Assembly (NCBI RefSeq): GCF_001540865.1
Contig: NC_033640.1
Location: forward strand, 5,092,813 to 5,156,812
Reading direction: 5' to 3'
DNA length: 64,000 nt
DNA from: Ananas comosus
Taxonomy: Eukaryota; Streptophyta; Magnoliopsida; Poales; Bromeliaceae
The notes under the pieces are model-generated. The model was not told the origin of the DNA. It worked only from the letters and a program-made list of their open reading frames with translations, and did no database searches. The position numbers were made by a program, and so were the translations under genes. Below are positions 4,944 to 44,416 of the stretch, piece after piece. Positions within the stretch are counted from its first letter, which is position 1. Each line of letters begins with the position of its first letter.

Positions 4944-4955
4944 TGGTATCAGAGC
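4944..4955 (+). other. primer-binding site, initiator tRNA-Met type
   Basis: TGGTATCAGAGC, complementary to the 3' end of plant initiator tRNA-Met, seven bases after the LTR end. It marks the start of minus-strand DNA synthesis for element 1. Confidence 0.9.
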
Positions 4956-5134
4956 CAAGAGTGAAAGAATAGGAATGGACCTAGAGACCTATAGGATTGG
5001 AAGACCTTAAGGATCTAGGAAACGTGAGTGACGTGGAATTAAAGTTAGCGAAAGCATGTGATTGGGTTAAGATGGGACGTCTCTAATGTGATTAGAGGCT
5101 AAGATTAATTTTCATTTGTTTCCTACTCCTTGTT

Positions 5135-5159
5135 TTGTGTCGGGCGGCCGACGACATAA
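5135..5159 (+). promoter_or_regulatory. leader hairpin with palindromic loop, element 1
   Basis: The stem TTGTGTCG/CGACATAA (8 pairs, one G-U) closes the 9-nt loop GGCGGCCGA, which holds the 6-nt palindrome CGGCCG. It lies 179 nt after the primer-binding site and 101 nt before the gag ATG. Elements A, C and D have the same loop at a similar place on different stems. It is probably an RNA dimerisation or packaging element, which is an inference. Confidence 0.7.
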
Positions 5160-5260
5160 TGCTTGGGGCGAGAACAAATGCAGGTTTGCTTTCGCCAGAT
5201 TGGGTGTGGTCGAGTAATGTGGTCAAGTAGTTAACGTGTGTTGCTTCTTTTCAGGAAGCA

Positions 5261-6146
5261 ATGGCACCTCGTGGACGATCGCAGACAAGGTTGATGCCGG
5301 AGGAGCCGAACGTGGAGCCTGAGCGATCCAGAGCGAGGGGCGACGGAGAGCTTAGGGAACAAATGACCGCGCTTATTGGCGTAGTGCGGCAGCAAGCGGA
5401 GTCTGTTCAACGCCAAGGGGAACAGATTCAGCGGCTCCAGGAGACCTTGGAGCGCCAGCAGGCGGCGGCGGCCCAAGCGGGTGTCGAACGTGTCACACCC
5501 CCTGTGGTAGTGCCGAGCGTGGACGAGGGAGCGGCGGCAGCAGCGGCTGTTCCAGTTACGGTAGTACCGGCCGGATCGGGAACCTCAAATCCCGATAGTG
5601 CGGCGGTAGTAGCGGAGCGAGAGCGCACGTTGGCGGCTCTCATTCAGTTCAAGAAGTTCGACCCACCTACCTTCGAAGGCGGTTTGGTGGAGCCGGCGGT
5701 TGTGGAGTCGTGGATCGACTCAATGGAGACGCTCTTTGAGGACCTCAATACCTCGGAGAAGGATAAAGTGTATCTTGCCACCCATTGTCTTGAGAAAGCG
5801 GCGAAGGTGTGGTGGAAGCGAGTTAGGCGGGATCGACCTACCGACCTCCCGCCTATGATGTGGGAAGAGTTCAAGAGAGCGGTGTTCGCAAACTACTTCC
5901 CCAACACGGTGAAGCGGAAGCTACAGGACAAGTTCCGCAAGTTGAGGCAGGGCGATCGATCGGTGGGGGAGTACGAGCAAGAGTTCTCCCACCTTATTGA
6001 TTGCGTTCCCGACGTTGTTCGTGATGATCGGGACCGGGCGGATTGGTTCTTGCGAGGACTCCAACCCCGGATTTATGAAAAGGTGCAAATATTGAAGCTG
6101 ACGACCTTTGCGGAGATCTTCGACAGAGCATTGTGGGCGGAGCACG
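5261..6146 (+). pseudogene. gag: Gag of element 1, truncated by a nested LTR
   Basis: The structural Gag of a Ty3/gypsy chromovirus, which would package the element RNA. About 295 codons are open from ATG. The first ~75 residues include a Gln-rich coiled-coil-like stretch. A linker rich in Ala and Val follows, then the Retrotrans_gag core from about residue 120, with FDPPTFEGG, VYLATHCLEKAAKVWW and KLRQGDRSVGEYEQEFSHL. The zinc-knuckle end is missing because a foreign LTR starts at 6147, where the reading frame runs on artificially for 30 codons. TTTTCAGGAAGCA just before the ATG looks like a 3' splice site, with a candidate donor GTGAGT near 5026. The core is closest to the Gag of element D, not to A, B or C. 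Confidence 0.85.
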
Positions 6147-7457
6147 TGTCACGCCCCGGGACCCAGCGGAAGCCTGCCCGGCACGTGCCCAGACCTGCCA
6201 TACGTCTAAAACGTATAAGGCGTCTAAAACAACAATAATAAAAGACATCTAGAAGTATCAGAGCATAATAAATGTCTAAATGCTACAACCAAGGATAAGT
6301 ATAAACTGTAAATCCACTAGATAAGACATAAAGTAAATACAATAGGCAATCCCAAATGCAAGTGCTAAAAGTAGGTACATAGGTGGTCTCTATACATGGA
6401 TACAGAAATCTCCCAACTATAAAAAAGAAAGAGCAAACCACCTAGGCAAAGAACCGCTCCTCGCTAGCTAGCTAAGCGATCCCCTTACCGCGATCCCGTG
6501 CCTCCGCCGGTGCCGAAGGCTCTGAAAAGTAAACCACGAAAACAGGGGCATGAGAACTATTAAAAATAGTTCCCAGTGGGCAATTACTTACTTCAGTGAA
6601 CTGCGCCACAAGGCCCAAAAGCTACAAGAAGAGGTCAGTGACTAACAATGTAATAATAAAAAGGTAAGCATAAAGTGACTTACTATAACATAGAGTCTCC
6701 ACTTAGCATGATTGGCATAAGTAATAAAGCAACTATCTCATGAATTATTTTGCAGGAGAACATTGGATTGGTTGGCAGTCCTACGTTATGTTGTTCATAC
6801 CCTCAGTCTTCATGAGTAGTTGCTTTATTATTATGCCAATCTGCTAAGTGGAGCTATATGTTATAGTAAGTCACTTTATGCCTTACCTTTTTATTATTAA
6901 CTGTTATGTGCCAGTACTTTTCTTGTAGCTTTTGGGGGCTTGTGGCGCAGTTCAAATGAAGTCGATGTAATTGCCCATGGAACTTTTTAGTTATAGTTCG
7001 CACACACGGTTTTCGTTGGTTACTTTTCAGGAGCTTCGCGACCGGCGGAGGCACGGGACGTCCGATCGGCAACGCAGACAGGCAGGAGAGCAATCGCTTA
7101 CGGCTAGCTAGCGGAGCATATGAAGGCTAGGTTCTTTGCTAGGTGTTTTGTCTTTTTTTTTATAGTTGGTCAAGAGAGTGAAGAATTTACATGTATCCAT
7201 GTTATAGAGACAACCTATGGGACCTACTATTATAGCACTTGATTTGGATTGCTATTGTATTACTTTATGTGCTTATCGGTAGTGATATACAGTTTATCTT
7301 ATCCTTGGTTTGTGATTAGGAGATTAATTCATGTACTGTGATATCCTAGCATGTCTTTTATGATTGTTGTTTGAGTACGGCTTATACGATTTTAAGCGTA
7401 TGGCGGGTCTGTGGCAACGTCGGGCAGAGCTTACGCGGGGATCCGGGGCCGCTGACA
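6147..7457. repeat. large inverted repeat of two LTR pieces, head to head
   Basis: The left arm (6147-6744) starts TGTCACGCCCCGGGACCC, a minus-orientation LTR head. The right arm (6809-7457) is its approximate reverse complement and ends CCGGGGCCGCTGACA. Matching landmarks include AGTTCCCAGTGGGCAATTA against TAATTGCCCATGGAACT, and the GCAACTA/TAGTTGC blocks beside the 64-bp spacer. The right arm is the 5' LTR tail of element G. The left arm belongs to a minus-strand insertion in the gag of element 1. No target duplication was resolved. Confidence 0.75.
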
Positions 7458-10400
7458 GGCGCAGACGACAGCGATAATTTGGGGGTATCAGACTAGGGTT
7501 GAGGTTTAGGGGATCCTAGCAACTTTAGGCCGGCTTGGATGATAAGGGTAAATGAGGGTGGGTAGGAGAGACCGGAAGGGCGTCTATTCGACTTGTGAGC
7601 GCAAAGATATGTATGATTGAGACGGGGGGGGATAGTTAGTGATAACTGTAAAGGTAAGAGATAATGATTGCGAGCGTTTGGTTCTAACTTTCGCGGAGTG
7701 GTTACGTTCGCGGCGACACGTAATCGGGAGGCCCATTAGGTGGTGAAGAAACTTCTTTACTTCTTGCAGATTTGGGGTTGTGTTTAGAGCGGGATGCGGA
7801 GTAGCGTGAGTATTTGGTAACTGTAGACGTTTATGATGTGACTGTCGGGACGATGTCGATTACTACCAGCTCCCAATCTGCCGGCGGAAAATGCGGCAAG
7901 ACTTCGGAGTGAGGTTCGGGACCTCGCTACTCGTGAGGCCGCGAGGTCGGATTGAGGGGGCCAGCTTGCGGCCCCCCCATAGATTTGGGTCACTTTCAGC
8001 ATGCGCGAGGCGGCCCGCAGCGACGGAGGCGCACGCGCGACAGGAGGCTGCGGATGAAGCGTTTGGAGGAGGATTATTATCTGCAGCAGGTGGCGGGGGG
8101 CTTCCAGTGGGAGCTCAAGCCCTACACGGGCAGGAGCAACAGTTGTGACGTAGGGTGCACCCTAGCAGGCATCCCCACGCCCAGTTGCTTCGCGGTGCGG
8201 TGCTGCGGTCGCACCCAGGAGAGGTTTTGGCGGCACCACTGTGCAGAGGCTCGTGTTGGAGTGCTTTTCTACCTTTGGGGTAGGGGGGGGGCGGAAGCGA
8301 AGACAGACTGATGGAGCGCCTCAATGAGTTCAGGAGGTGCAGTCTCGAGTTTTTGACCAGGTGGGAAGGCATCGACCACTGGGATCATGAGAAGTGGTGA
8401 GCACATTGGAAAAGCTCAGTTCGCGGAACTTCGGTGGGAGGAGATGTGAAGGGGCAGGGTGGGACTCGCCTCACCACTTGGACGGCGAGCTTACCGCTGC
8501 GGGGTAATTGGATTTTCACAGGAACAGCCTAGCAATGAGGGAAGGCTTGGCAGCATTACTTGGACGAGGTTCAAGAGCGTTCTATCTGGCGCACTACTTC
8601 CAACGCAGCTGGAAGTCCAAGGACGGAGGAAGCGACTGGGGAGCAGGATAGTTGGCAGCTTGGGAAACGTGACGCCAAGGCGACCGACCAGGGTGGCCGA
8701 GTCGAGAGGAGTTCTGCTCTGGCTTCCAACTGCATGTGCGTGCCGCTTTCGAGTCGTGCGGGCGCGAGGACAGGCACCGGATCTTCGAGCGAGGGTTGCG
8801 ACCGTGAGGTCGTTTCGGTTTGTGCAATCCTCAACTGCCAACACCTACGGGAGGTGGCTGAAGACGGGCGGCGGGAGGCGGGGCTCATTCTAGAATGCCG
8901 AAAGGGAGAGCGGCGCGACAAATGATGCCAGGAAGGCAGCGTGAGGCCGGCGACAGAGGGAGGCAGAGGCGTGCGGCTGAGATGGTGGCAAAGCAGAACG
9001 AGATAACAGCGGGTGAGAGCGCACTCTAAGCGAGACGCACAGGCTTCGAGGAGCCACAAGGCCAGAGCACGTGAGGCGTTGGGACGCTCCGGGAGCTCAC
9101 CGAGGGAGGCTATAAGCTTGACCGACGCAGAATCGCGCAGGAAGCTGAAGGTGATCTGTGGTGGGCCTCCCATGTTCCCGGCAGTGCGCGCGGGGGAGGG
9201 AGGTGAGTTTCAGTGTGGCCAGAGAGAGGCACACGTTCGGAGCTGTGTGCGAGGGGATCTTCCCTGAAGGTGGGCCACCGATCAGCTGGATCCGGCATGC
9301 GCATCTACAGCGCCGGGCCAGGGGACTCCGAGTCAGGGGAAGACAGTACCACCTGAGCAGCGGCTTCAGCCGAAATGATCCAGCGGACAGAGAGCGAGGT
9401 CGATCGACGACAGGAAGGAATAGGCCCGCTGGCTGGGGGGGGGCATGTACGGGCTCTAGACTGAGGCGGCAGGAGGCCACAAGGGCCGCCAAAGGGGAGC
9501 GGCAGGGAAGGCGGCAGCGAGCCGGCGGAGGATGGTGTGTTGCAGGGTATCAATTTTATTGATGGATTGAGTTTCTGCTTTATTTGATACGGGAGCGATC
9601 ATGAGCGCATCGCATTTCATTTACTAGATCGATGATTTGCCGGTTGCTGGCATCCACGTTGGTTTTTGTTGCATACGGGGAATGTGTGTTGTACCCGACC
9701 CTGTTTTGGATATTAGAGAGTATAGCCCCTAGTTCCCTATCGGGTAGGAGATTGGATTATACTATAGATTTGCTAGCTATTGCGGCAGTAGGATTTTGAT
9801 GTGGTCTTGGCATGGAGTGGTTGACATATTATGCCACGATAGGATTGCTAAAGAAATCGCACCGGTTACTTTTAGAACCGGGGCAAAACTGAAAGGTGAT
9901 ATTTAAGTGGATGCCGGGTTAGCTGCTTGGTGATTAAGATTAGTGTCTCGAGATAGCAGCTGAATTCTGCAGAGGTTGCGTAGCCTATTTGGCTAGTGTT
10001 GGATGGCTGAGGGGCGGACGGGGGGATGTAACCCTAGGATCGAGGATATGTCCGGACTGGGCGGGAGTTTAGGGATGGGTTTCAGCTGAGCTACGGGCAT
10101 GCCTCCAATCATGTAGGGAGATTGAGTGTGGTGTGTGTAGATTTCTCGGTCCCTGCGGACGACCCCAATCTCAAAGGGCCCCATAGGGTACGGGCACGGG
10201 CAGGAGGTAGGAGGCTAGGGCACGAGCTGCAGGATTTGTTGGACAAACGGCTTTAGTGTCGGGACGAGCGTCTCGCCTTGGGAGCATCAGTTTTGTTCGC
10301 AGAAGAAGACGCGATCGCTGCGCAGTTTGGTGGATTATCGTGTCAACAAAGTCACGATCAAGGGGAAGTATCGTTACTGAGAGGCGGCAGACCATGCGAC

Positions 10401-13275: not shown

Positions 13276-15255
13276 TGGATAGCACATGGACCTTTGCAAA
13301 TTGCCGAGGTTCGAGTTTCGATTTGTATTCCGCTTTCCACAACTTGGTGGAGGGGTCGAATGGGATCGTCTAAAAGTTCGATCGCTGAGAGGTTTGCAGA
13401 GTCCGGAGGTGTTTTACTCTCGGGAGACCGGTCCCTGATAGGAGAGACGGTCCACAAGTGAACGCAGTGCGCAGTGGCCGCGAGAGCAACCGGTCGCCTG
13501 GCAGTTGAGACCGGTCCCCTGAGAGGCGTCTACCGCGGGTGAGAGACCGTCCGCGCGCAGGGGAAAGACCGGATTCCGGAACGTTGGTTGTTTGTCCATA
13601 GCGGGGGAGGACCTGAGAGGTACAGGGTCCAGGTCGGAGGGGGACGCGTCCCTCTGGGCGAAATGCCCAGACCTAAGCGGGGCTAATGAATTTGGAGTTT
13701 AGTTTGAGGGCCTGATGTGGATTTGTTACTTTAGAGGTATAAGCCAGCCCTGTGCTGCTCACCTCTCACTCTCATTTTCGCTCCTCACACCTCTATACTA
13801 CACTGTCTAGAGAGAGAAAGGGAAGAGAAGAGGAGAATGAGAAGGAGAAGAGCTTGATTGGAGGCTTGTGAGCGCATCTTCTTTCCTCTTCACCTTTGGA
13901 GAGTTGGAGCTTGCGTTGGGAAGCTTGTGGAGGTCTAGAACTTAACCCTACTTCGGTTTTGAGCTTTGGATTGGGGTGCTTTTGAGGTTTGTAGACTTGT
14001 AATCCCAAATTTGTTACATGCTTTCCTAGGTGTTTACTAAATGAACCTAGGATTTTGGGGAAATTTAGGGTTTATTTTTTGGCGGTTTTTGATTTGGCGG
14101 GCTTTGGAATCCAATTGAATTGATGGGTTCATAGAGACCTCTTGGTTTTAGGTTAGATTGCGAAGGACACTCAACTCCATTTGGAGATCTGTGAGGAGCT
14201 GCTTCGCAATCGGTAAGTTTTCTCCAACGTACAGCTTGAGGAGGGCAGGCTTAATGAGGTGAGCTATTTTGCGTTAGTTTCGTTTGGGTGCCCTATTTTT
14301 GATGTTTCTAGGGTACTAGGAGCTGGGTTGGATACCTTCGTTTCGGCCGAACGAAGAAGTTGATTTTGGTGGTTTGATTCATTGGAAATAGGGCAAAATG
14401 GCCCCTTGCCTGTCTAAACTTTTGTTAAAATATTTTGATGAAATTCATCTAATATATGACTCATCGTTGTTGAATTTTAAACACTTATATGCATGGGCCT
14501 ATAGATCGTAAATTTGCACATCCATATAGTGCTATATGTGTGTTGCATGAATTGTGAATAGTGCTTGGTTTTACCAAGTTGAGAACATGTCTCCATGCTA
14601 GAGTGATGGAATTACAGCGTCATGAAAATTAATGCCAATGCTTGGAGACTCGCTCTGAACCAATTAAGTGTCATCAAGGGGCACTTGAAAAGAGTAAAAC
14701 TATTATAAATACACCTAGGCGTGACGTAGGTAAACGGCACTAGGTATATCTGCCTACCTCCGCAATGTTAGACATCATGTGAATAGAGATAGGCGCATTG
14801 AGGATACTTGATAGGTATTCCATGTTGTATAGACATGAGGACTTGCGCTCTTGAGACGTGGATCTTTGTTGCCTTGATTTTACGCATTTTGTGCTCATGC
14901 GCACATGGCTTTGAGGGTCGCTCCTGTTACAAGCCGGCACTCCGGAGGATAGCCATTCGCGGACAATTGACTCGCGGTGCGGGATTGAGGCGCGAAGGTG
15001 GTTCGGGCGGGAGGCTCATCCCTGAGTGGGGATGTTGAATACACAGGGCCAGTTAGGGCACGGGCAGGCCAACAGCCTTCAGGTGGGGTCTGGATATGAT
15101 TGGGATTAGTGAACGGAACGTGCTTTGTGAACTCTAAACTATAAAGTGGACTTGGACTAGAAAAGTAAAACAATGACATCCCTACTATTTGGGATTGAGA
15201 AAATTGGATTGGTTGATTCCTACGCTTGATGCATGTGATACCCATCCATGTATAT
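13276..15255 (+). repeat. 3' LTR of element G, cut by the gap
   Basis: It begins just after a decayed polypurine tract (AGGAGGGGGTGAAA) with sequence matching the usual LTR start (CATGGACCTTTGCAAATTGC). It carries a degraded ACCGGT array at 13421-13575, and at 14910-14950 the block GGGTCGCTCCTGTTACAAGCCGGCACTCCGGA in damaged form. It runs into the 100-N gap, so its end is missing. Confidence 0.65.
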
Positions 15256-18700: not shown

Positions 18701-20542
18701 TCGTGCTCGCGAAGGGCTAATAGTCATTGCGAACAATGAACTCTGGCACCCCTTATAAACAAACTCCTGCTGACCCGGTTCCCTAAAGGTCACCGTTCTA
18801 TTCGTGCAATCAATGGTCGCATAATACTGTGTTAGCCAATCCATACCCAACAATACTATATCAAACTCGCCTAGTTTGTGTAGTGCCAAAAGATCCACTG
18901 GCATAATCCAGTCGCCTACCCTAACTGGGCAGCGAGGGCAAAACTCACAAACATCTAGGGTATGGTTGGGCACGATCACTCGTCCCGGATGCAAAGTATG
19001 TACTAACTGAATGCTATGCAGCTTGGCGAACTGCCGATCAATAAAAGAATGCGAGGCACCAGTATCAAATAAAGTACGAACACGAACATCATAAATTATA
19101 ATAATACCTGCTACGACCTCCTCTGCTGTTGTGGCCTCCTCTGTCTGGGCAGCGTACATACGCACACTCGAACCCTGCCGAGGACTCTCAGACTGCCGGT
19201 GTCCCGGTGGTCATCTGTACTGAGAGGGTGCTGTCGGGGTCCCCTGACCCGGAGCTGACGGTGCAGGTGCAGATGATGATGATGGGGCAGGCGAAGAACC
19301 TCTCGGGCACTCTGAGCGAAAGTGGCCCTCCTGACCGCAGAGAAAACACCTGCCCCCACGTTATGGACACTGTGGCGGAAAGTGAGGCCCGCCACAAATG
19401 ACACAACGTGGCTGTCGACGACGCTCAGGTGCTCTGCGGGGTGCTGAAGAACCTCGACCCCTCGACTGGCCCGACTGGCCTCTCGGATACTTCGGCGGTC
19501 TCCTGAAGGATTGCTGACCACTGTTCTCAGCTGTTGGTCTTTTCCCTTTACTTCGATCCACAATATCTATTTCCTTCATAATTTCTGCCTCTTTTTTCAC
19601 AATCAAGGCTCGATTCACCACTTCCCTGTAAGTAGAAAGGTTTGACGCCTGGACCAATCTGAAAATCGCAAGCCGTAAACCCACCTCAAAAATACGGGCC
19701 TTATCCTCATCATCTCGAACCACAAAAGGAATACAGTGCAGTAATCGGGAGAACTCTCGCTCATGCTCTGCTACTGTCCTGTCCCCTTACCTCAGGTTTC
19801 TCAGATCCCTTTCCATCTGCCTCCTCACACTCTGTGGAAAATAGGTTGTCAATAGTAATTCCTTGAACCTCGTCCAGGTAATCGCTGGCAAATCCACACG
19901 GGGGTCCTCATGGATATCTACCCACCACCTGTAATCCTCGCCATCGAGGTGGTGTGTCGCAAACCAAACTCTGTATCGCTCCTCAACAAAAGTATCATAG
20001 AATAGTTTCTCCATGTGCATCAGCCATTTTTCGACCACCGAGTGATCTGCTTTTTCCCCGTCTAAGATACGAGGGTTACAACGACGGAATTCATTCAGTC
20101 GTTCCATCATCCGCTCTCGCTCCTCAACCCCCACCATCTCTGGTAACACTGTCCCTGTCGCTACCACATGCACTGGTGGTAGTACTACTGTCTCCTGTCG
20201 GGTCTCTACACTCAGAGCTACTGGCGAGGTATCTGGTACCGGTGACTATGCTCTCACTGTCGCATCCCTGTCTGGTACTGTAGGCACAGGATCAGGAATC
20301 TCTCTGTCGGTCGTCTGCCGCAGTAGTAAATCCTCTAACCTTCTCATTCTGTCATCCTGTCGACGCGCAGTATCCATCTGTTGTCGCGCTGCCGCAGCCT
20401 GCTGAGTCACTAGATCAGTCAACATCGCAAGTTGATCCTGCAACTCATGGATCCCACTAGATCCGGAAGTAACGGAGGTCTCCACTTCCTCCGCATCAGC
20501 CGCCTCAGCCGCCTCGGCGGTCCTCGAACGAGTCAAAGGCAT
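15716..20542 (-). pseudogene. gag-pol: Gag-Pol polyprotein of element A, eight in-frame stops, no frameshift
   Basis: One 1608-codon frame runs from MPLTRSRT to the stop at 15716. Domains in order: a Gag core (codons ~110-300) with EKLFYDTFVEERYRVWFATHH; CVICGGPHFP and the CCHC knuckle CFLCGQEGH; protease [11 protein letters not shown] with VKKKDGS and [11 protein letters not shown]; RNase H with YSDASLNG and [10 protein letters not shown]; integrase with CLTCQQ, DFIVGF, SDRDTRF and PQSDGRFERT; and a C-terminal chromodomain (VKRLRNRKIPYVK to REATWELE). Stops lie at 20246, 19787, 19361, 19211, 17948, 16895, 16346 and 16082 (codons 99, 252, 394, 444, 865, 1216, 1399, 1487). Several fit C-to-T change, for example Gln at codons 252 and 394 and Arg at 1487. 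The usual RNase H glutamate in HDLELAA is Lys here. The copy cannot make an active polyprotein. Confidence 0.9.
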
Positions 20543-20666
20543 CTTAAGCTGCAGCACAAAAACAAACATAGATTAATAAAACCTATACTATTAAATCTTT
20601 ACTTCAGATATAAGCCAACTAATCAAGCGAAAGTAATGAAATGTAACGCATACTAACTTCCGATGT

Positions 20667-20688
20667 CACGTTGTCGGCCGCCAACGTG
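20667..20688 (-). promoter_or_regulatory. leader hairpin, element A
   Basis: On the element strand, CACGTTG/CAACGTG (7 perfect pairs) closes the loop GCGGCCGA. It starts about 180 nt after the primer-binding site and ends 124 nt before the gag ATG. The stem differs from that of element 1 but is fully paired. Confidence 0.7.
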
Positions 20689-20868
20689 GCCCTCTGCAAA
20701 GTTAGTAATTGCACATTCCGATCAAACTCCTACCATTCGGAGTTTATAAATTACCCAATCAAAGTACTTTCGCTGACAACAAACTCGACTAGACCTCGTC
20801 ACTCACGAGCCTATCCTTATGGTCCAACCAGCCTAAGGTTTACTAGGTCTACTAATACTCAACCGTAG

Positions 20869-20880
20869 GCTCTGATACCA
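20869..20880 (-). other. primer-binding site of element A
   Basis: On the minus strand TGGTATCAGAGC, matching initiator tRNA-Met, eight bases inside the 5' LTR boundary. Confidence 0.9.
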
Positions 20881-20888
20881 CTATAATT

Positions 20889-21292
20889 TGTCACGCCCGG
20901 GTACCAACGGAAGCATATCTGGTACGTGCACAGACCCGCCATACACCTGTAGTATATAAGGCGTCTAAAAAGAAGCAAGTCGATAGGAAGAAAACATAGA
21001 AAATCTTATCTTGATATCAGAGCAGCGTACAAGTCGATAAACTATCAACAGTAGGACAAAGAGAACTCAAACCAAAATCTCACATCAAAGAGAAGTATCA
21101 CAACTATAGTTCCCGGTCCAAACAGTAATATACATCACGGGGTATACAAAAGTAGATACAATGGTAGTCTCTCTATACACTGGGACATCACCCTCGGCCG
21201 TAGCCCGAGTAGCAAGGTGATCGACTAGCAAGCTCCTAGCAATGTCTAGCTAGACGCGACTCCCTTGCCACGATCCCTAGCCTCTCTTGTAA
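20889..21292 (-). repeat. 5' LTR fragment of element A
   Basis: On the plus strand it starts TGTCACGCCCGGGTACC and shows the usual CAGACCCGCCATAC and GGCGTCTA blocks. It stops at the single N at 21293, after which an unrelated LTR tail begins. Confidence 0.85.
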
Positions 21293-22507: not shown

Positions 22508-25217
22508 TGTTATGCCCCGGGACTGGCAGAGGCCCTCCCGGTAGCGTGCCCAGACCCGCCATATGTCAACACATATAAGGCGTCTACATCAACAGCGAAA
22601 ATAAAAACAAGAAATAGGACAAATAGAATAATAACAACTAATGATATCAGAGCGAGTAAAGTTCTATCATCTAAACCAGAGTAAAAGAAACATAACTGCA
22701 CAACAAAAGTAACCATGAAGTAGTATAAAATCTGTCTCAAAGGTACATAAAAGGGTGGTCTCTAGTACACTGGTACAGCTCTCAACCTCTCCAAAATGAA
22801 ATACATCGAGAGGTAGACCACCTAAAACTCGTCACTCGCTGAAGGGCTAACTCGAAGCAACGCCCTTCCCACAGTCCCTAGCCTCTTCCGGCGTGGAAGG
22901 CTCTGAAAGAAAACATAAAATAGAGGGCGTGAGAACTATAATTTATAGTTCCCAGTGGGCAATTACTGACCTCAGCTCAATGCACCACTAGGCCCAAAAA
23001 AAAAAAGGGTAAGTAACGGCAGTAATAATAGGCAATAAAAAGCGAGTATAAGAACTGCTGAAAGAAAGCATAAATGAAATGCTATACTACTATGTCTCAA
23101 GTAAGCATGATGTCATGGTGATGTACATCTACGCTATCATAAGTTAATAAGTCCAATGCATACTATTATGCCTCAACAGAATAAACAAGTAAACCTCACG
23201 ATGCAATATGTCAATGCATAAGGAGTAATCTCTATCAAAGCAACCCAGTATACTATGATGCAATGAATAGAACAGGCAAGTATACTATATATCCCAATGC
23301 TATGTCATGAGCATGTCAAGTAATCCAACTACTAAGCCTATCTAGTAGTGATTATTCAATCTCAACCCTGTGTAGATTTCCATTTCCAATTAGGGACCCA
23401 CCAAAGGTAGTCCAGCTTGTGCCGCCTAAGTGCCTGTGGTAGCCCAACATCCCTACTCTTGGAATGTGTCTGTCCCACTCGACCCCGTAGGCTTCTCAAT
23501 ACCGCACGAGTGAACGTAGTCGCGAAGGCTAACTCCGGAGTGCTGGCTTGTAGGGAGCGACCCTCACAAGCGTGTGCGAACGAGCACAAATGGCAAGCAA
23601 GCATAGTCCATGTCTGAAGTATCCAATCCTCATGTCTCTAACATGGTATAGTCACTAGCATCTCGAAGATCTAGTTCTAAGTCACAAGTAAAGTTTCAGC
23701 ATTCATTACGCCTAGTGCCCCTTGATGACACTTAGACAATTCAATGTTCAACATGTTTCCAATCCCTCAATGGCCCTATTCACTAGGTTTAACCATGTCC
23801 CGAGCTCCATGCCGCTTGATGACATTAGCTCTCTAAATCACATAATAACCAAGTTTGGTGCCTCTATAAGGCAATTTTGTTATCTTTCACATTTCAATTA
23901 AACTTAAGTTTGGATGCATGTATCGACGTTCATTTACACAATAGAAACATGAAACCAAATCTCGCATAGGACGCTAATGCAACCCTATGTCTCTCAAGCA
24001 ACTCTCTACTACATAGAGGTCCAAAACTTCATTACATGTAATATAGGCATTTTAAGCATTCTAAAATTCACAATAAATACATATAACAAGAATATGCATG
24101 CTTTTTCATTTCACAACACTTAAATCATCAACAATGAGATTTTCTCATTGTGTGGCTAGGTCAAACCCACCGAACCGTCGCGTAGTGCCTCGATTCGCCG
24201 AACGGAGTTGTCCACGAGTCTCCAAATACCCTAAAAGTATTGAGCGAAGAGATACACAGGCATTACGATCAACTATAAGATCAAACATTAACCAACAAGG
24301 CAAAAAGGGCTAAAATCTCACCTAGGTGGAGAAAAACTCTCACAAGCTCCAAAAGAAGACTAAGATCCTTCCAATCCAACCCAAAGGAGTGCCCTAATCC
24401 AAAAAAAATCTAGCCTCAAAAGCCCTAGATCAAAAAGCCCCAAAATCAACCATAAAATCCCATTCTAGGGTTCCATATGGTAAAATCTACCAAAACAAGG
24501 ATCGAAGGGTAGAATCGAAGCACTAACCTCTTTAGATGCCTCAAAACAAGCTCCAAATCTTCTAGGGTTGAAGATTGGCCCACCACCAAGCCCTACAAGT
24601 AAGCTCCAAACCTTGCAAGGGTGGAAAGGAGAAAAAGGGTTGAAGCTCCAAGCCTCCTCAAGCAAGCTCCTCCTCCTCTTCTTCTCCTCCTCCTTCTTCT
24701 TCTCTCTCTAGAAAGTGTAGGAAGAGGGTGAGAATGAGGAAATGAGGAAGGAAAGAGGGTGGAAGGGCTATTTAGGCCATCCAAAGTAACAAAATCCCAA
24801 AAGGTCCCTCAAAAATTCAAAATTGCATCAGCCCGGTCTGGGCATTTTTCGCCCAGAGGGACCGGTCTCTTCCTGCAAGGGACCGGTCTCTCGCTGCGAA
24901 CCCGAGAAACCATCGTTCGGGAACCGGTCTCTCCCCGCGCGGGACCGGTCTCTCACTGCGAGGACGCGTTCGGGGACCGGTCTCGCCCGCCAGGGACCGG
25001 TTGCCTCAGGGCTGCCACAACACTGCTCACTGGGAGACCGGTCTCTCCTTTCAGGGACCGGTCCCCGAGAGTGAAAACTCTCAGGACTCGTCCAGAACTC
25101 AGGTTTTCGAACTTTTTGGATCGGAAAACATTCAACGACCCTCCACCAAGTGTGGAAAAGCTCGAAACACATCCAATCACTCGAACCTCACAATTTGCAA
25201 AGGTCCAGTGTGTTACA
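22508..25217 (-). mobile_element. solo gypsy LTR with imperfect target duplication
   Basis: A 2710-bp LTR starting TGTTATGCCCCGGGACTGG and ending AGTGTGTTACA on the plus strand. It is flanked by GGAAC (22503-22507) and GGAAT (25218-25222), a 5-bp target duplication with one change. There is no internal region, so it probably arose by LTR-LTR recombination. It contains an ACCGGT array and, near 23710-23850, a degenerate short form of the TTATGACATTAGCTTACT repeat that is expanded at 36660-37165. Confidence 0.75.
24855..25075 (-). repeat. ACCGGT array in the solo LTR
   Basis: Eight GGGACCGGTCTC-like words in about 215 bp. They are arranged as pairs, each in CTCGCTGCG or CTTTCAGG contexts. The array lies 145-360 bp inside the LTR start (element strand), upstream of a TAAATAGCC TATA-like site near 24769-24777. 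Confidence 0.8.
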
Positions 25218-25313: not shown

Positions 25314-26681
25314 CTGTTATGACCCCTCCATCTGTCTCTGGACAGGTGCCCTCCCGGCTTGGTAATGAGTAAAAGGTGTCCCCTGGCTGGGACCCGGTGA
25401 AGCTGGTGCTGATGCCGATGATGGCGTTGGCACTGGACCCCTCGGGCAGTCCGACTGGAAGTGGCCCTCCTGGCCACACAAGTAACACCTACCCCGACTG
25501 CGTCGGCACTGCCGTGGTTGATGAGGACCACTGCAGATCACACAGCGCGGAGCCTGTCGACGGTCCGAACCTCCATGCTGAGTAGAAAAGCCACGTCCTC
25601 GCGACTGGCTCCAGCTCCTTGGGTGTCTCGGCGGCCTCCCAGAGTGCGTCTGGCTCGCACCCTCAGCCGCAGGCCTTTTGTCCTTACCCTTATCCAAGCC
25701 CTCACAGCGCTCCTACAAATCCGCCGCGCCGCTCTCCACAATGAGCGCGTGGTTTACCACGTCTCGGTAAGTCCGGAGGTTGGAGGATTGCACCAACCGA
25801 AAGATCGACGGCCGAAGTCCTCGCTCGAAGATGCGGGCCTTGTCCTCATCGTCCCGCACAACAAAGGGCACACAGTGCAAAAGCCGAGAGAACTCCCTCT
25901 CGTACTTGGTCATAGTCCGGTCCTCTTGGCCCATAATGCACAGATCCTGCTCCATCTTCCTCTTGACACTGTCGGGGAAGTAGTGCTACAATAAGAGTTC
26001 CTTGAACCTCTTCCAAGAAATCCCTGTAAGGTCGGTGTTGGGATTATCCTAGATACCCAACCACCAACTATAGGCCTCCCCGTCCAAGTGGTGAGTGGCG
26101 AGCCAAACTCTGTCCCTCTCCTCCACGAAAGTGTCGTGGAATAACTTCTCCAAATGCATCAACCACTTCTCTACGATCCAGTGGTCGGCTTTCTCTCCCT
26201 CAAAGACCCTGGGGTTACACCTCCTGAACTCGTTGAGGCGATTCATGAGCCGCTCCCGCTCCGCTCCCTCAACCATCACGGAGAAAACCGTCGCTGGTAC
26301 AGGCACCTGAGCTGGTGGTGCCGCGAATACCTCCTCCCGAGGTGCTACCGCAGGTGCCGCCCGCGAAGTGTCGAGTGCAGGGGACGACCCCCTGGGTGCA
26401 ACCACCTCCACCGGTGCTGGTGGTATAGGGACCTGAGTCTCCCTGGCAGCCGTCTGCTGCAATAAAAGGTCCTCTAGGCACTTCATCCGCGCTTCCTGCC
26501 GGCGCGTCACATCTGCCTGCTGCCGAGTCGTCGTCGCCTGCTGCGTCACCAAGTCAATGAGGGCCGCAAGTTGGCTCCTCAACTCACGGACCTCGTCGGA
26601 TCCGGAGGTAGCGGATGTCTCCATTTCCTCAAAAGTTGCCGCGTTGTCCGCTCAAACAAACTTAGAGCGTGTTGTCGACAT
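25314..26681 (-). pseudogene. gag: Gag of element C, broken by in-frame stops
   Basis: The frame starts at the ATG at 26681 (MSTTRSKF). It runs through the coiled-coil-like region LAALIDLVTQQATTTRQQADV, the Gag core MNRLNEFRRCNPRVFEGEKADHW and ATHHLDGEAYSWW, CVICSGPHQPRQC and the CCHC knuckle CYLCGQEGHFQSDC. It ends where B's LTR starts at 25313. In-frame stops lie at 26651, about 26049, about 25986 and about 25710, all in one frame with no indel. Those at 26651, 26049 and 25710 fit Arg or Gln codons changed by C to T. No pol follows because B and its nested pieces occupy that place. Confidence 0.85.
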
Positions 26682-26805
26682 TAGCACTACAACATCATAA
26701 AAGCGTAAGTTAATAAAACCCACGCTATCGCAACCCCACTCAAACAACTAACACCCAAATCATGCGAAAGGAAGGAAGTGTCCTTTACTACTAACCCCCG
26801 ATGTA

Positions 26806-26825
26806 ACGTTGTCGGCCGCTAACGT
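26806..26825 (-). promoter_or_regulatory. leader hairpin, element C
   Basis: On the element strand, ACGTT/AACGT (5 pairs) with an A-C mismatch next to the loop GCGGCCGA. It lies about 177 nt after the primer-binding site and 124 nt before the gag ATG, as in element A. The weaker stem fits the older age of C. Confidence 0.6.
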
Positions 26826-27001
26826 AACCTTCCGCGAAGTTAGAAGCCATACACTTCGATCAACTCCAATATTTTAGAGTTATCACAAAATACAATCATG
26901 ATACTTTCGCTTACAATCAAATAGACCTCGTCTCTCATGAGCCTATTTCCTATAGTCCAACCGGCCTAAGGTTTACTAGGTCTACTAAGACTCAACCCTA
27001 G

Positions 27002-27013
27002 GCTCTGATACCA
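27002..27013 (-). other. primer-binding site of element C
   Basis: On the minus strand TGGTATCAGAGC, eight bases inside the LTR boundary at 27022. Confidence 0.9.
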
Positions 27014-27380
27014 AATTAATCTATCACGCCCCGGGACCCGGAGTAGGCCCGCCCGGTGCGTGCCCAGGCCCGCCATATGCCTGCAAATATAAGGCATCTA
27101 CAACAAAAGCAATAAATAAACCTGAGATACAAACATCTAGAGATATCAGAGCGAGTATACAACTAGATTCTATCAACAAGTGGAATAAAAAGAGACTAAA
27201 CCACTGAAGTAAGAAGTAAAAATAATAGAACCCAAGTCTCATGATACATATAATGGGTGGTCTCTACAAAATGATATAAGTCTCTCAACCTCTCCAAAAA
27301 GAAACAAAAGAGAGGTAGACCACCTATCGACCAATCCCTCACTAGCTAGCCCGAGTCGATTCATTTCCCGCGATCCCAAG

Positions 27381-29818
27381 TGTCACGCCCCAATCCCCGC
27401 CAATTTGGTCGGGTTCGGGTCACGTCAACAGACGCCGAATGGACAAAGCCTCCCCTGCCCGCCCAAGGCTCTCAAACATGTATAATAAAGCAATCAAACA
27501 ATGAGATTACATTTATACAAGGCTTGCTCGAGGGCAAGCAACAACGGAAGCGAAAGCTATAAGCTAATACATTCACCCATACATAATACTTGATTGCTTT
27601 TGCACCAAATAAAAGTAAACTGAACTATTATATTTCTTGCTCTCATTCATAATTCTTTACATTTAGCCATTCACCAAATTACATATTGTTTTCAACTTTA
27701 CAACTTTCTAAATCAACAAAAGAAGTTGATACATGTAAACCAAAAGGGAAATGACTACAAAATGCGGAATAGTCCCGGTGGCCGCTATCTACGGCGCTAA
27801 ACCCTTGCCTCGGTCCTCCGCCGCCCCGCTCGTGCTAGGACCTGTAGGGTTAGTGGTATGAGAACTACAACGAAGTTCCCAGTGGGTTCGGCAACCGACC
27901 TCGCCGACTTACCCACTAGGTCTATCCAGGCATAAGTATTTCAATGGAAAAAAAGTAACCAATACTAATGCAACTAATACTATGCCTGCAAGAAAGAAGT
28001 CAGCGGATATATATATTCAATGCGATAATGGAAATGCATGCATACTCAAATCATAATTAAGCTTTGACTCTTACCCAATCTTACCGGTTAACCTTGTTAA
28101 CCCCAATAACTCATAACCCAAATCCCTTTCTACCGGGGAGGCTCCAAGCACTACCGACCCGAGGGACCGTCTGCGGGGACCTCGCTCCCCTAGGTGACTA
28201 TTTCCGAAAACTCACCGCTTGAGGGGGGAGCTACCACCCTCAAGCCAAGATTTATCATGAGTATCGATCGAATCCCCAACTTGAGGATACTTAGCCACTA
28301 GTCACAATGCCACTTTTATGATAGGTTTTCTACCTATTTGTTCATGTCATTCTCTAGTCATTCTTGTCAATGCCAATTTTGTCTCTATTGTCAACGTCAC
28401 CTTTGTTTTCTATTGTCCAATCCAAGTCTCTCAATCATGCAATCTCTAGGGTTCAACATTATATGTCCATCATGGTTCCATAGCTCTCTATGTTCAAATA
28501 CGTTAAGATAAATACATAGTGGAAACAACCAAAGTTCACATGTAAATTAACCCTACTATGCATGAATGGCTATATACAATATGCTCAACAAAAGTGAAAC
28601 AGACATAGAAGGGAATCCAACGATTCCGGCGTGCACCCCCCACCTCGCGTGGTCGTGTAGGTGTAGAATGTGACGACTCTCGAGCTTTACGAAAGCCGAT
28701 TTCGCACCCTATAACCAAAATAGTGCCATATTAGGCCTTTTGTACATGAACTATACTCAAACATTTTCGTAACGTCGAACGGAGTTGCCCAACGCGTTTA
28801 TTTGACCCCCAATTAGGTTTTTACGAGGTCAATTTGCCCTCGAAAAATTCCAAGGCAAAAGTCTTAAATTTGAGCCTAAACAATGCCCTAGTGGGATTTC
28901 TCTTGGATTGATCTCTCTCTTAAGCAAATAATAGCTTAAAATCACCCAAGAAGCATTCTAATTAAGTTTCCAACCCTTTGGAACCAACCCTAGGGCATCT
29001 AACTCAATCCCCAAGGTTTCATCATGAGAGCACCTTGAGCTCTCATGGGTTTCATGTTGTTCATGGCTCAAAAGAGCTTCTAAGACCTCTAAGGAGCACA
29101 AAGCTCCAAATCCTTAGATCAAAACCCAATCCCTAGAGGGAATCTTGCAAGAACTTACCTCTAGTCCAAGCACCACCAAGCTCCTCCTTGTTGGAGAGCT
29201 CCTAGACCCACCAAAGCCGCCAAATCCACCTTCCTCTTGCTTCTTCTTCTTTTTCTTCTCCAAGCTCTAGAGCTAGGGTTCTAGAGAGAGAAAAAGAGGG
29301 AAATGAGGAGAGGGTGAAAAATGGCTGTGGGAGAGAGGAGATGGCCACATAAAGTGTTGTGACAATTGCACTTAGGCCCTTCCACTTCCTATTCTGTGCA
29401 CTGCCCAGACTGGGCAACTTTCGCTCTCGGGGACCGGTCTCCCCGACCAGGGACCGGTTCCCGAACGTTGGGTTTGCAGGACTTAGTCGATTTTTCAAGT
29501 TTTTGGCTGGCTACGCAACGAGGGACCGGTCTTTCCTTCAGGGACCGGTCTCCCGAGAACCGGTCTCACTGCCAGGGACCGGTTGCCTCAGGATTCCTGG
29601 CAGGCTACGCTTACGGGGACCAGTCTCTCCTTCAAGGACCGATCCCCGAGAGCACAAAATCTGGGACTTAGCCAGATTTTGAAACTTCTCTCTCTCGGGT
29701 CCCTTTGCACTATGTATAGGATCCAACGCACTTAGGATCTTTACCAACTCGTTCCACTCCGCGTTTTGCTCGTTTCGACGGAACTCGGCACAATTTACGA
29801 GGGACGTGATATGTTACA
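27381..29818 (-). repeat. 3' LTR of element D
   Basis: 2438 bp, plus-strand form TGTCACGCCCCAATCCCCGCC to GGGACGTGATATGTTACA. It is nearly identical to 33420-35867. It contains an ACCGGT array (29431-29655) and a GA-rich stretch near 29290. Confidence 0.95.
29431..29655 (-). repeat. ACCGGT array, 3' LTR of element D
   Basis: Six intact GGGACCGGTCTC-like words and two degenerate ones (ACCAGT, ACCGAT), paired as in the other LTRs and 160-390 bp inside the LTR start. Confidence 0.8.
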
Positions 29819-29830
29819 TTCTCCACCCCT
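29819..29830 (-). other. polypurine tract of element D
   Basis: On the minus strand AGGGGTGGAGAA directly precedes the 3' LTR start TGTAACATATC. Confidence 0.8.
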
Positions 29831-29883
29831 AAAATTTAGTTTCGTCCGCGAAACTACTAAGTTTGAAATTTAGATTTCATACC

Positions 29884-31650
29884 TCACTCCGAATCTTTGA
29901 AGAGGTGAGGATAACGCTCCCTCGTTTCGTTTTCGAGCTCCCACGTTTCTTCCCGGTCATCATGTTCGCACCAATGAATTTTAACATACGAAATTTCACG
30001 GTTCCGTAGTTTTCTCACTTCCCGATCTACGATGTAAGCCGGGAACTCCTCGTATGTCATATTCTTCTGAAGCTCTATCGGCATATACGAGAGAACATGA
30101 TCTGGATCGTAAACATACTTGCGGAGTTGGGATACATGGAATACATTATGTACTCAGGCGAGGCTAGGTGGTAATGCCAACCTCTAGGCCACCGCGCCAA
30201 CTCGTTCCAAGATCTCGAAGGGTCCGATATAGCAGGGACTCAGCTTCCCGCGAACACCGAACCGCTTAACTCCTCGCATTGGTGATACTTTTAGAAATAC
30301 GCGGTCTCCAACCGCGAACTCGATATCCTTTCGTCGCTTGTCGGCATAACTCTTGTGCCTTGATTGTGCTGTCACCAATCTTTGTCGGGCAAGACGGACT
30401 TTCTCTTTCGCCTCCCGAACCACGTCAGGGCCAAGCACCATCTTCTCGCCCACATCGCTCCAGTGTATTGGCGAGCAACATTTCCTTCTATACAGGGCCT
30501 CGAATGGCGCCATCGCAATGCTTTCTTGATAGCTATTATTGTATGCGAATTCCGTCATCGGTAAGTGATCATGCCATCCGCTCTTATAATCGAGTACACA
30601 CACTCGAAGCATATCCTCAAGTATTTGAATAGTCCTTTCTGATTGACCGTCACTTTGAGGATGAAATGCCGTACTAAAGTCGAGCCGTGTGCCCAATGCA
30701 TCTTGCAAGCTCCTCCAAAATTGAGATATGAACCTAGGGTCTCGATCCGATACAATAGATGTCGGAACCGCATAAAGTCTCACCACCTCGTCAAGGTATA
30801 CTTGGGCTAACTTGTCCCCCGACCAAGTAGTGTGGATCGGCAAAAAGTGTGCCGATTTTGTGAACCGGTCCACAACTACCCAAATCGCGTCATGTCCACC
30901 TTGGGATCTAAGCAAACCCGTCACAAAATCCATTGCGACGTTTTCCCATTTCCACACGGGTATAGGTAGACTTTGTAATTTTTCCGCCGAAAATCGGCGT
31001 TCCGCCTTTACTTGTTGGCACGTGAGATATTGCGCCACGAACTCTCCTATATCTTTCTTCATGCCCGGCCACCAATAATGCAATTTCAGGTCTCGATACA
31101 TTTTGGTGCCGCCCGAGTGAATGCTATAGGGAGATTGATGCGCTTCTTGCATAATCGCCCTCCGAAGATTGTCGTCCTTGGGCACGCACCAACGATCCCG
31201 ATATCGTAGTGCGCTATCGGTCCCAATGCCAAACTCATCGGCACTGTCGCTCTCAACTTTGCCCCGCACCTTTTGGAGAAATTCATCTTACGTTTGCAAT
31301 TCTTTGATCTTCTCCAACAAGGTCAGTCGCACAACCAATGTGGCAAGCATTGCCGGCACTCCCGGCGCCACCACTTCTAGACCAAACCGCTGCATCTCTT
31401 TTCGCAAAGCCGGTTGGGGTGTAATTTCCGTCGCCAAATTCTCCGCCGACTTTCTACTTAGAGCATCAGCCACGATGTTCGCTTTCCCGGGGTGGTAGAG
31501 AATCATGACATCATAATCTTTGAGCAACTCTAACCACCGCCGCTGTCGCAAGTTTAACTCCTTTCGGGTGAACAAGTATTTGAGACTTTTATGGTCGATA
31601 TAAATCTCACAATGTTCCCTATACAAGTAATGCCTCCACAATGCGTGACC
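29884..31650 (-). pseudogene. pol: RNase H end, integrase and chromodomain of element D
   Basis: It starts abruptly at [22 protein letters not shown], the last part of RNase [14 protein letters not shown] and the integrase follow: a zinc finger where the usual CLTCQQ reads YLTCQQ (first Cys lost), then DFVTGL, SDRDPRF and PQSDGQSERT carrying the DDE residues. The chromodomain block (VRKLRNREISYVK to REETWELE) ends near 29884. In-frame stops lie near 31280, at 30184 and near 30153. The frame differs from that of Gag and protease because of the deletion at about 31650. Confidence 0.88.
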
Positions 31651-31805
31651 TCTATGCCATGAGCTAGTGCCAATGATGCTGTTATGAATGACTGAGATGC
31701 ACCTGTGTCAAATATGGCTCTAGTTCTAGTGCCTCTGATAAGAATAATACCTGCCACAACGTCGTCGGGAACGGTAATCGGCGGCTCCTCCACCTGAGTG
31801 GCAAA
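31651..31805 (-). pseudogene. protease start of element D, fused at a deletion
   Basis: Codons in the Gag frame read EEPPITVPDDVVAGI and then the aspartic protease motif [10 protein letters not shown], with ALAHGIEV after it. Right after that the sequence changes to RNase H in another frame. Roughly the rest of protease, all of RT and most of RNase H are missing, about 1.3 kb by comparison with element A. Confidence 0.8.
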
Positions 31806-31808
31806 TAC

Positions 31809-33080
31809 CTACCCACTAGGTGCTCGAGAGGCTTCCGGTTGACGAGGCGCCGATGATCGTCCAGCAGATACGGCGGGTGGCAGTCCCGCCAGTTGTAACT
31901 GAGTGTACTGAACTGAAGCTAATGACGGAGCTGGGGATGCGCTGCCCGGGCACTCTCGGCCTATGTGTCCTAGTTGGCCGCATCGGTAACACCGTCCCTC
32001 CCGCTGTGGGAAAGTAGTAACTCGGTGGTCTCCGCCACATATCACGCACGGGTAGGTAGTCTGGCCCTGAGTCTGACTCCTACCTCCCCGCCCCTGTGAT
32101 CGCTGAGGTCGCGGGGGTCGCTTTGAACTTGATTGCCCGGCCGATCCACCAGTCGGTCGCTTCTTGGACCTATCTTTTTCCCCGTCCTTCTCAAAAGCCT
32201 CGCGCTCATCTCGCACAATGGCATTCCCGCGCTCTACCCAAAGCACGCGGTCAAGAACCTCTTCGTAGGTCTTCAAGCGGAATGCATGAACAACCTTGAA
32301 AATCTCGGGTCGCAACCCGCGCTCGAATGCCTCCGCCCGGTCCCTATCACCATGAACCAAGCTCGGCACGCAATTGATGAGGTGCGTGAACTCCCGTTCA
32401 TACTCCCGCACCGTGCGACTTCCCTGCCTTAGCCTTCGAAAATCCTCCTTGATTTTTCTTTTGTCGCTCTCAAGAAAATACTCCATAAGTAGCATCTCCC
32501 GAAACGCCTCCCAAGTAACAGAAGCGTGCTCCAACGAATGATTTTTCTTCACTTGATTCCACCACAACCGAGCCGACCCATCGAAACCGTTAGCCGCAAG
32601 GTGAACTTTATCCTTCTCAAGTGTGTAGATATCCTCGAACAATGCCTCCATCGCGGCTAGCCAATTCTCCGTCACCCACGGATCCTTCACGTCACCGTTA
32701 AAGGTCGGAGGGTTGAACCGCTTGAATGCCGTCAGCGCCGCCAACATACGCTCCTGCTCAGCCTCAAGTACATCGGGAATAGGAGCCGATGAACCCGATG
32801 CCGTCGAAGGAATAGCCGTCACCGGTGCTGCCGCCACCGCAGGAGGTGGTGCTATAGGAGCAGCAGGCGCGGGCGGATCCCTCGGCACAGATGCCGCCGC
32901 CGCCGCCTATCGCGCCATCATCTCGCGGAGCTGTCCAATCTGCTCCCCTTGAAGCTGCATAGCCCCGGCCAATGCCGCTACCTGGGCTCGCAGCTCGCAC
33001 ACTTCATCCGACCCCGTCTGCTGGGGCACTTCATCAGGTAGTGCCGAAGCGGCTCTACGCGTGTAGCGTCTCGGGGACAT
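31809..33080 (-). pseudogene. gag: Gag of element D, one internal stop
   Basis: About 423 codons from ATG (MSPRRYTRRAAS). The N-terminus has a coiled-coil-like stretch (LRAQVAALAGAMQLQGEQIGQL), then an Ala/Pro-rich linker. The Gag core shows FKRFNPPTFNGD, MEALFEDIYTLEKDKVHLAANG and LRQGSRTVREYEREFTHLINCVPS. The CCHC knuckle is CYRCGQLGHIGREC. An in-frame TAG at 32907 (codon 58) breaks it, and TAG at 31809 separates it from protease. The core is closest to Gag of element 1. CAG ends 5 nt before the ATG on the element strand. Confidence 0.88.
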
Positions 33081-33196
33081 TGTTCCTGAAATGCATCACA
33101 CGCATTAGCACTCAACACACGTGACTCTTACACGTTCCAAATAACTACCCAATTAAGCGAAAGCAATAGGCAGAATCATTTCCACTCTCGTTGTTA

Positions 33197-33215
33197 TGTG
33201 GTCGGCCGCCCCACA
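33197..33215 (-). promoter_or_regulatory. leader hairpin, element D
   Basis: On the element strand, TGTGG/CCACA closes the 9-nt loop GGCGGCCGA, the same loop as in element 1. The second pair from the loop is G-C here and C-G in element 1, a compensated change. It lies about 185 nt after the primer-binding site and 116 nt before the ATG. Confidence 0.7.
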
Positions 33216-33400
33216 AAGTCCCTTAAGTAGTCATCAATTAAGCCTTCTAATCCATCTCTACTTCCTTCTAGAGAAGTGTTATCGTTAACCCAATCATTCG
33301 CGTTCGCATAAGCCAAATCCACGTTAAACGTTTCCTAAGCTGCTAAGGTCTCCAATTCCTACGGTTCCTAGGTCATTCCTAGACTTTTGCTTTCCAATTC

Positions 33401-33412
33401 TCTCTGATACCA
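33401..33412 (-). other. primer-binding site of element D
   Basis: On the minus strand TGGTATCAGAGA, initiator tRNA-Met type with one change in the last base, seven bases inside the 5' LTR. Confidence 0.85.
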
Positions 33413-33419
33413 TTATATC

Positions 33420-34043
33420 TGTCACGCCCCAATCCCCGCCAATTTGGTCGGGTTCGGATCACGTCAACAGACACCGAACAGACAGAGCCTCCCCTGCCCG
33501 CCCAAGGCTCTCAAACATGTATAATAAAGCAATCAAACAATGAGATTAGCATTTATACAAGGCTTGCTCGAGGGCAAGCAACAACGGAAGCGAAAGCTCT
33601 AAGCTAACACATTCACCTATACATAATACTTGATTGCTTTTGCACCAAATAAAAGTAAACTGAACTATTACATTTCTTGCTCTCATTCATAATTATTTAC
33701 ATTTAGCCATTCACCAAATTACATATTGTTTCCAACTTTACAACTTTCTAAATCAACAAAAGAAGTTGATACATGTAAACCAAAAGGGAAATGACTACAA
33801 AATATGGAATAGTCCCGGTGGCCGCTATCTACGGCGCTAAGCCCTTGTCTCGGTCCTCCGCCACCCCGCTCGTGCTAGGACCAGTAGGGTTAGTGGTGTG
33901 AGAACTACAACGAAGTTCCCAGTGGGTTCGGCAACCGACCTCGCCGACTTACCCACTAGGTCTATCCAGGCATAAGTATTTCAATGGAAAGAAAGTAACC
34001 AATACTAATGCAACTAATACTATGCCTGCAAGAAAGAAGTCAG

Positions 34044-34089
<46 letters not shown>

Positions 34090-44222: not shown

Positions 44223-44416
44223 TGTCACGCCCCGGGACCGGCGGAGGCCCTCCCGGTAGCGTGCCCAGACCCGCCATATGTCAACACATATAAGGCGTCT
44301 ACAACAAAAGCGGAAGTAAAAGCAAGAATAGAGCAAACGACGAGGTGAAATAACTATCAACTAATGATATCAGAGCAAGTAAAGCTAGACAATAAAGAAA
44401 TCATAAGTAGTACAAT
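44223..44416 (-). repeat. gypsy LTR head in the copia 3' region
   Basis: It starts TGTCACGCCCCGGGACCGG and matches 22508 onward (GTGCCCAGACCCGCCATATG). It stops after 194 bp at the single N at 44417, after which copia 3' sequence continues. The remainder of the insertion is missing from the assembly. Confidence 0.8.

Follow-up and report, generated by a model that had tools for sequence, protein, structure and literature searches.

A palindrome-tipped leader RNA domain in a pineapple LTR retrotransposon family, a probable kissing-loop dimerisation site

The leaders of a family of pineapple (Ananas comosus) retrotransposons, likely Del/Tekay-like chromoviruses by their coding sequences, contain a closed RNA domain between the primer-binding site and gag. 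One arm of this domain is tipped by a self-complementary hexamer, and the domain probably holds a dimerisation site of the retroviral kissing-loop type. There is almost no doubt that the arm and its tip are a conserved structured RNA; for the closing stem this is less sure. Pairing between RNA molecules is the likely function on comparative grounds, and a role in packaging is plausible from position and analogy. The elements were studied in a window of 64,000 nucleotides (the whole stretch of contig NC_033640.1 that was analysed) and in copies from the pineapple genome. A dimerisation signal had been proposed in an earlier note from hairpins in the window; structure-level tests now support that reading, as does new evidence, the occurrence of other palindromes in the loop of one subfamily.

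A stem scan of the window recovered the four leader hairpins of that note at their places in elements 1, A, C and D, together with an altered copy in element H and a decayed one in element G (Table 1). For the first four the scan found a short self-complementary word in the apical loop, which reads GGCGGCCGA in 1 and D and GCGGCCGA in A and C. Outward from the loop, the stem of element 1 is G-C, C-G, T-A, G-C, T-A and that of D is G-C, G-C, T-A, G-C, T-A; the exchange of C-G for G-C, one two-sided change that keeps the pair, had been described correctly. Three pairs are kept with both sides changed between 1 and A, two between A and H, and none between A and C. The element A stem has seven pairs, of which the first (A/C) and seventh (T/T) are broken in C. 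An unpaired G or GG precedes the palindrome and an unpaired A follows it in elements 1, D, A and C, and in 6/6 copies of subfamily III (see below). The reported distances, about 180 nt from the primer site and 100–125 nt from gag, also agree with element 1, in which 188 nt lie between primer site and loop start, and about 105 nt between the end of the stem and the gag ATG. Hairpins with a CGGCCG loop occur at five sites in the window, four in leaders and one elsewhere, and appeared in 1/15 order-1 Markov copies of it. The site elsewhere (14336–14356; TTCGGCCGA, 6-bp stem) carries the palindrome with no surrounding leader seen.

Table 1. Positions of leader features in the 64,000-nt window.
Feature	Element	Position	Strand	Remarks
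Apical hairpin of arm P3	1	5135–5159	+	stem 5138–5142/5152–5156, loop 5143–5151, palindrome CGGCCG 5145–5150
Leader domain	1	5048–5195	+	P1 5048–5054 with 5189–5195
Hairpin P2, GTCTCTAAT/ATTAGAGGC	1	5079–5099	+	domain MFE fold; consensus pairs
Primer-binding site, TGGTATCAGAGC	1	4944–4955	+	0 mismatches
gag reading frame	1	5261–6238	+	Pfam PF03732, 1e-20
Leader domain	A	20627–20773	-	apical hairpin 20667–20688
Primer-binding site	A	20869–20880	-	
Leader domain	C	26764–26910	-	apical hairpin 26806–26825
Primer-binding site	C	27002–27013	-	
Leader domain	D	33157–33307	-	P1 with one mismatch; apical hairpin 33197–33215
Primer-binding site	D	33401–33412	-	one mismatch
Apical hairpin	H	54777–54798	+	7-bp stem, altered loop GCAGCTAG
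Decayed apical hairpin	G	7704–7721	+	
GCTCTGATATCA-type sites		21012–21023, 27141–27152, 22642–22653, 44365–44376, 6253–6264	-	
GCTCTGATATCA-type site		54540–54551	+	

The hairpins themselves were well described in the earlier note, which missed the larger closed domain of 147–151 nt that holds each of them in the four elements. This domain consists of a closing stem P1 (GCGAAAG/CTTTCGC), a hairpin P2 and an arm P3 tipped by purine-CGGCCG-A; in element D the 5' strand of P1 is GCGAACG, one base off. The pattern GCGAAAG N{70,100} GCGGCCGA N{30,60} CTTTCGC matched three times in the window (elements 1, A and C) and never in 100 shuffles. When the domains were folded alone, 7, 7, 7 and 6 of the seven P1 pairs formed in 1, A, C and D, with a P2 that differs in sequence between elements; in the fold of C the palindrome's outer bases are paired to one another. 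Single-sequence folds stood out from their shuffles in three domains (1, A and C; z -3.1 to -3.8), but that of D did not (z -1.17, 39/300). In minimum free energy folds of the whole leader, A and C retain both P1 and the apical hairpin, element 1 retains the hairpin and lacks P1, whose mean probability is 0.05, and in D both are lost (0.03). P1 may therefore be one of two states, or be absent from the copies in 1 and D. No Rfam family matched the window at its gathering score, and three sub-threshold matches (E 1.4–3.5) fell in the leader of element 1.

Copies of the domain are abundant in the pineapple genome. The pattern P1+loop+P1' matched 1007 times (473+534), compared with six matches (1+5) for the reversed pattern, and a pattern blind to the loop found 970 copies (463+507) against three (1+2) for its control. 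From 100 listed copies of the first pattern, whose P1 and loop are constant because the pattern selected for them, 80 were fetched; with the four window elements they make 84 domains (mean identity 0.675; seven groups at 80%). The palindrome lay in an apical loop (stem of at least 4) in 65/83 domain folds and in 1/415 inner-shuffled ones. In subfamily 1, 12/25 folds lacked the apical loop by the rule used, part of the palindrome being paired in some (L125, L147). A primer site with at most one mismatch was found upstream in 73/80 fetched copies and in 17/20 gag-anchored leaders. Two short motifs accompany the closing stem: TGATTGGG follows its 5' strand (5040–5075; at most one mismatch in 74/80 fetched copies) and GATTGGG its 3' strand (5196–5210; 64/80 fetched copies, among L020–L099). 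They make up a repeated motif to which Gag might bind. Among viral contigs, primer site plus loop gave one match, a GC-rich one in which the 501 bases read showed no other part of the leader, and P1 plus loop gave 10 matching stretches.

Two samples are unbiased with respect to the loop, namely 20 gag-anchored class I leaders, hand-picked from the best 42 of 123 gag matches, and the copies found by the loop-blind pattern. Absence of the loop word from most members had been named in the earlier note as evidence against its reading; the word was exact in 19/20 gag-anchored leaders, the remaining one having two changes, and in 62/85 loop-blind domains (first 85 of 100 listed places), with another loop in 23. 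Such constancy would also be expected of a packaging hairpin whose loop is read by Gag, self-pairing being incidental, and one mutant of the mouse mammary tumour virus (MMTV) pal II dimerised and yet lost packaging, according to the available part of PMC4264320. This explanation is nevertheless unlikely, given that subfamily III uses five different hexamers whose common trait is self-complementarity.

The structure of the domain appears to have been kept while its sequence changed. RNAalifold applied to a MAFFT alignment of the domains of 1, D, A and C returned the P1-P2-P3 plan with 30 pairs, 10 of them with both sides changed. In this alignment 92.5% of cells were paired, against 38–52% with slid partners, and 0/500 shuffles reached that value; the number of further pair types was reached by 46/500 shuffles. 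Compared with column shuffles, the four-domain structure gave z -9.55 (0/500), the class I pair -5.4 and the class II pair -6.2. The flanking controls were null (primer site to P1, z +0.57; downstream, -0.9), and the antisense of the domain also exceeded column shuffles (z -8.4). When stem halves were swapped between subfamilies, pairing fell by little, from 7.4 to 6.6 of 8. A per-pair covariation test on the 84 domains (home-made G-test with APC and a tree-based null) found 0/10,296 pairs at E<=0.05, a test of low power because there are about 5.3 changes per column. Covariation beyond phylogeny, whose absence the earlier note had named as evidence against its reading, was not detected for single pairs, but tests at the level of the structure, by column shuffles and in trees, were positive.

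In tree tests with structures derived from the same alignments, changes that break pairs were rare on internal branches, with 3 against 12.8 expected in class II (51 sequences; 0/300), 2 against 10.8 in class I (33 sequences; 0/300) and 7 against 13.1 in all 84 domains (1/300). Double compensating changes on internal branches were in excess in class II (7 against 1.4 expected, 0/300), in class I (2 against 0.3, 16/300) and overall (4 against 0.6, 0/300). Breaks on terminal branches were at expectation in class II (24 against 23.6) and class I (21 against 21.9), and above it in all 84 domains (23 against 14.9). Structures taken from single-sequence folds gave few internal breaks for 6/6 references (0, 0, 0, 0, 4 and 1 of 300). 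The corresponding values for internal doubles were 4 (wA), 14 (wC), 0 (L029) and 18 (L021) of 300, and weak for w1 (31/300) and wD (93/300). Terminal breaks were low as well for wA (15/300) and L029 (8/300). Slid controls were mostly null, although a slide of -1 gave low internal breaks for L029, w1 and L021 (0, 1 and 3 of 100). On balance, the depletion of internal and not of terminal breaks fits a structure that is kept during replication and lost after insertion. These results make it very improbable that the domain lacks an RNA function and owes its conservation to common descent or to a role as a DNA element. The copies are indeed related and the per-pair test is null, but internal branches avoid pair breaks, and sense folds are more stable than antisense folds in the four window domains (-49.3/-37.4, -49.2/-44.2, -47.8/-31.9 and -34.7/-23.6).

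The case for pairing between molecules comes chiefly from exchange of the palindrome. Among the 23 places with another loop, six belong, to judge by their P2 motif, to a further subfamily, III (83–92% mutual identity). Their loop words are GTATAC, CGTACG, GTGCAC, GTGCAC, GCGCGC and ATGCAT, that is, 6/6 palindromic and five different, in a set of n=6 noticed after the fact. The word is unpaired at the tip of P3 in 6/6 domain folds (in L160 with a 4-bp stem). In three of the copies the flanks were read as well; the primer site is exact in two, and CAG precedes a gag-like ATG in two. The other 17 changed loops, of classes I and II and read by eye, comprise 16 in which a single change in CGGCCG, for the most part C>T or G>A, destroys the palindrome, and one in which a symmetric double change, CAGCTG, preserves it. 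Relative to the commonest word of subfamily III, 4/4 differing words are palindromic, against 1/17 in classes I and II (Fisher p 0.0008). This natural exchange, 6/6 in subfamily III, suggests that the palindrome can be replaced provided that the new word is self-complementary. Symmetric C-to-T decay could also turn one palindrome into another. Among the 64 palindromes ranked by energy in a fixed helix, GCGCGC is 5th, CGGCCG 7th, GUGCAC 15th, CGUACG 32nd, GUAUAC 35th and AUGCAU 39th; subfamily III thus holds weak palindromes, which speaks against a simple stability rule.

Self-complementarity that is kept through replacement is useless within a single hairpin and so points to pairing between two molecules. 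The different self-matching tips suggest that pairing itself is what evolution keeps. The palindrome might instead act as a long-range switch by pairing with a remote part of its own RNA. A CGGCCG at 5568, inside the gag frame of element 1, could be such a partner, P1 and the hairpin of D yield to other pairings in whole-leader folds, and long-range U5-Gag pairing has been described for MPMV in the available part of PMC7674771. However, the partner would have to change with every new palindrome, and the palindrome itself would be needless, which leaves this arrangement highly unlikely.

It is just as improbable that the domain serves mainly in translation or splicing, with ribosomes skipping it by a shunt or splicing excising it as a leader intron. 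Seven ATGs precede the gag ATG in element 1, CAG|GAA stands before the gag ATG in 19/20 gag-anchored leaders, and YAG..ATG is found in 72/80 fetched copies. Nevertheless, a donor-like GTGAGT is present in 13/20 class I leaders but in 20/80 fetched copies and 0/38 of the largest subfamily, and the pyrimidine rule for an acceptor is satisfied only in 1 and A. Accordingly, a leader intron was rejected as a general feature, YAG before gag being common and the donor not, and a ribosome shunt was rejected on the variable places of the upstream ATGs between elements. Neither explains replacement of the palindrome, and either could coexist with dimerisation. YAG just before the gag ATG, together with branch-point-like motifs, was observed at 5240–5263 (+) and at 33075–33090, 20535–20560 and 26675–26700 (-).

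The coding parts of element A stand in the gypsy order gag-PR-RT-RH-IN, the integrase core scoring 28.6 bits (cut-off 32.6) and the rest passing. A chromodomain (PF00385) follows the integrase at 20.4 bits in A and 21.9 bits in D, both below the cut-off of 25.1. Proteins matching the element 1 gag were mostly named Ananas comosus (68/73), with one from Corylus. No relatives of the RNase H/integrase-region protein of element A were found elsewhere, and a search for relatives in other genome contigs gave 0 matches. Element D (27381–35867, minus strand; LTRs 93.5% alike) has no more than about 540 bases separating the gag frame from the integrase frame, which leaves no room for protease and reverse transcriptase, and is therefore probably a non-autonomous copy. 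The primer-binding sites presumably match initiator-Met tRNA. A sequence complementary to them, GCTCTGATATCA or a near match, lies roughly 106–142 bp before the LTR end in LTRs of the A/C class and in H; its commonest form makes 12 pairs with the primer site, including one G-U. With at most two mismatches it was found in 36/38 and 8/8 fetched copies of two subfamilies, 0/34 of the others and 1/80 shuffled tails. By its complementarity it may hide the primer site; alternatively, it may be reminiscent of the self-priming reportedly used by Tf1. The window further contains a 1.3-kb stretch (6147–7457) that matches its own reverse complement at 77%, being two head-to-head repeats, and tandem repeats at 36712–37160 with units of roughly 44–51 bp, as judged from self-matches.

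The available parts of several papers describe comparable sites. The palindromes of HIV-1 are few, chiefly GCGCGC, GUGCAC and GUGCGC (PMC5874298), and the SL1 dimerisation palindrome of this virus sits in the loop AAGCGCGCA (PMC4264320). The pineapple site resembles SL1 in its 5' leader position and its 6-nt palindrome with two purines before and one after, and GCGCGC and GUGCAC are among the words in use in subfamily III. In contrast to SL1, it belongs to a plant LTR retrotransposon, has P1-P2-P3 surroundings and is known by comparison; no homology is claimed. CGGCCG is also the pal II of MMTV, located in the 5' UTR and needed for dimerisation and packaging (PMC4264320); MMTV is an animal retrovirus, and the likeness drawn here is one of word and place. 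In Ty3, of the same superfamily, the candidate CUGCAG at 391–396 (DS/PAL6) lies at the apex of a short hairpin and is a proposed, SHAPE-supported dimerisation site (PMC11381356); by its place it is in GAG, whereas the present palindrome is in the leader and rests on comparison. Loop-loop contacts in the Ty1 leader domain are proposed to start dimerisation and packaging (PMC5454406), although that system has no single palindrome but a pair of distinct, complementary 7-nt motifs within a pseudoknot. The plant element BARE is said to have conserved dimerisation and packaging signals (PMC3735527); it is of the Ty1/copia type (PMC12786077), and the available main text of that first paper uses neither 'kissing' nor any form of 'palindrom-'. 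No dimerisation site of a plant Ty3/gypsy element was found in the open-licence literature searched, among the matches listed, and the main text of a 2025 review of the plant LTR retrotransposon life cycle has no word starting with 'dimer' (PMC12786077).

In the proposed mechanism, the domain would act in cis in genomic RNA. Comparison suggests that a 6-nt self-complementary word is exposed in an 8–9 nt loop of P3 and flanked by purines, that pairs were kept while replicating lineages changed sequence, and that the word was replaced by other palindromes in one subfamily. Two genomic RNAs would meet through kissing of their loops, Gag would stabilize the pair, perhaps as an extended duplex, and it is as a dimer that the RNA would enter particles and be reverse transcribed.

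Del elements make up 16.4% of the pineapple assembly in the available part of PMC6022998, and the choice and pairing of genomic RNA in plant LTR retrotransposons seem little studied. With about a thousand natural copies of the domain and natural loop exchanges, the question can be tested with ordinary RNA gels. The agreement of the words with HIV-1 and MMTV would be a remarkable convergence or a deep retention of mechanism. A more speculative idea, with a small chance of being right, is that subfamily III swaps its dimerisation word while staying palindromic, giving related elements different kissing codes that distinguish self from non-self. If true, RNAs would find partners chiefly within their own lineage, and the particles of a lineage would largely exclude RNA from defective or non-autonomous relatives that exploit them.
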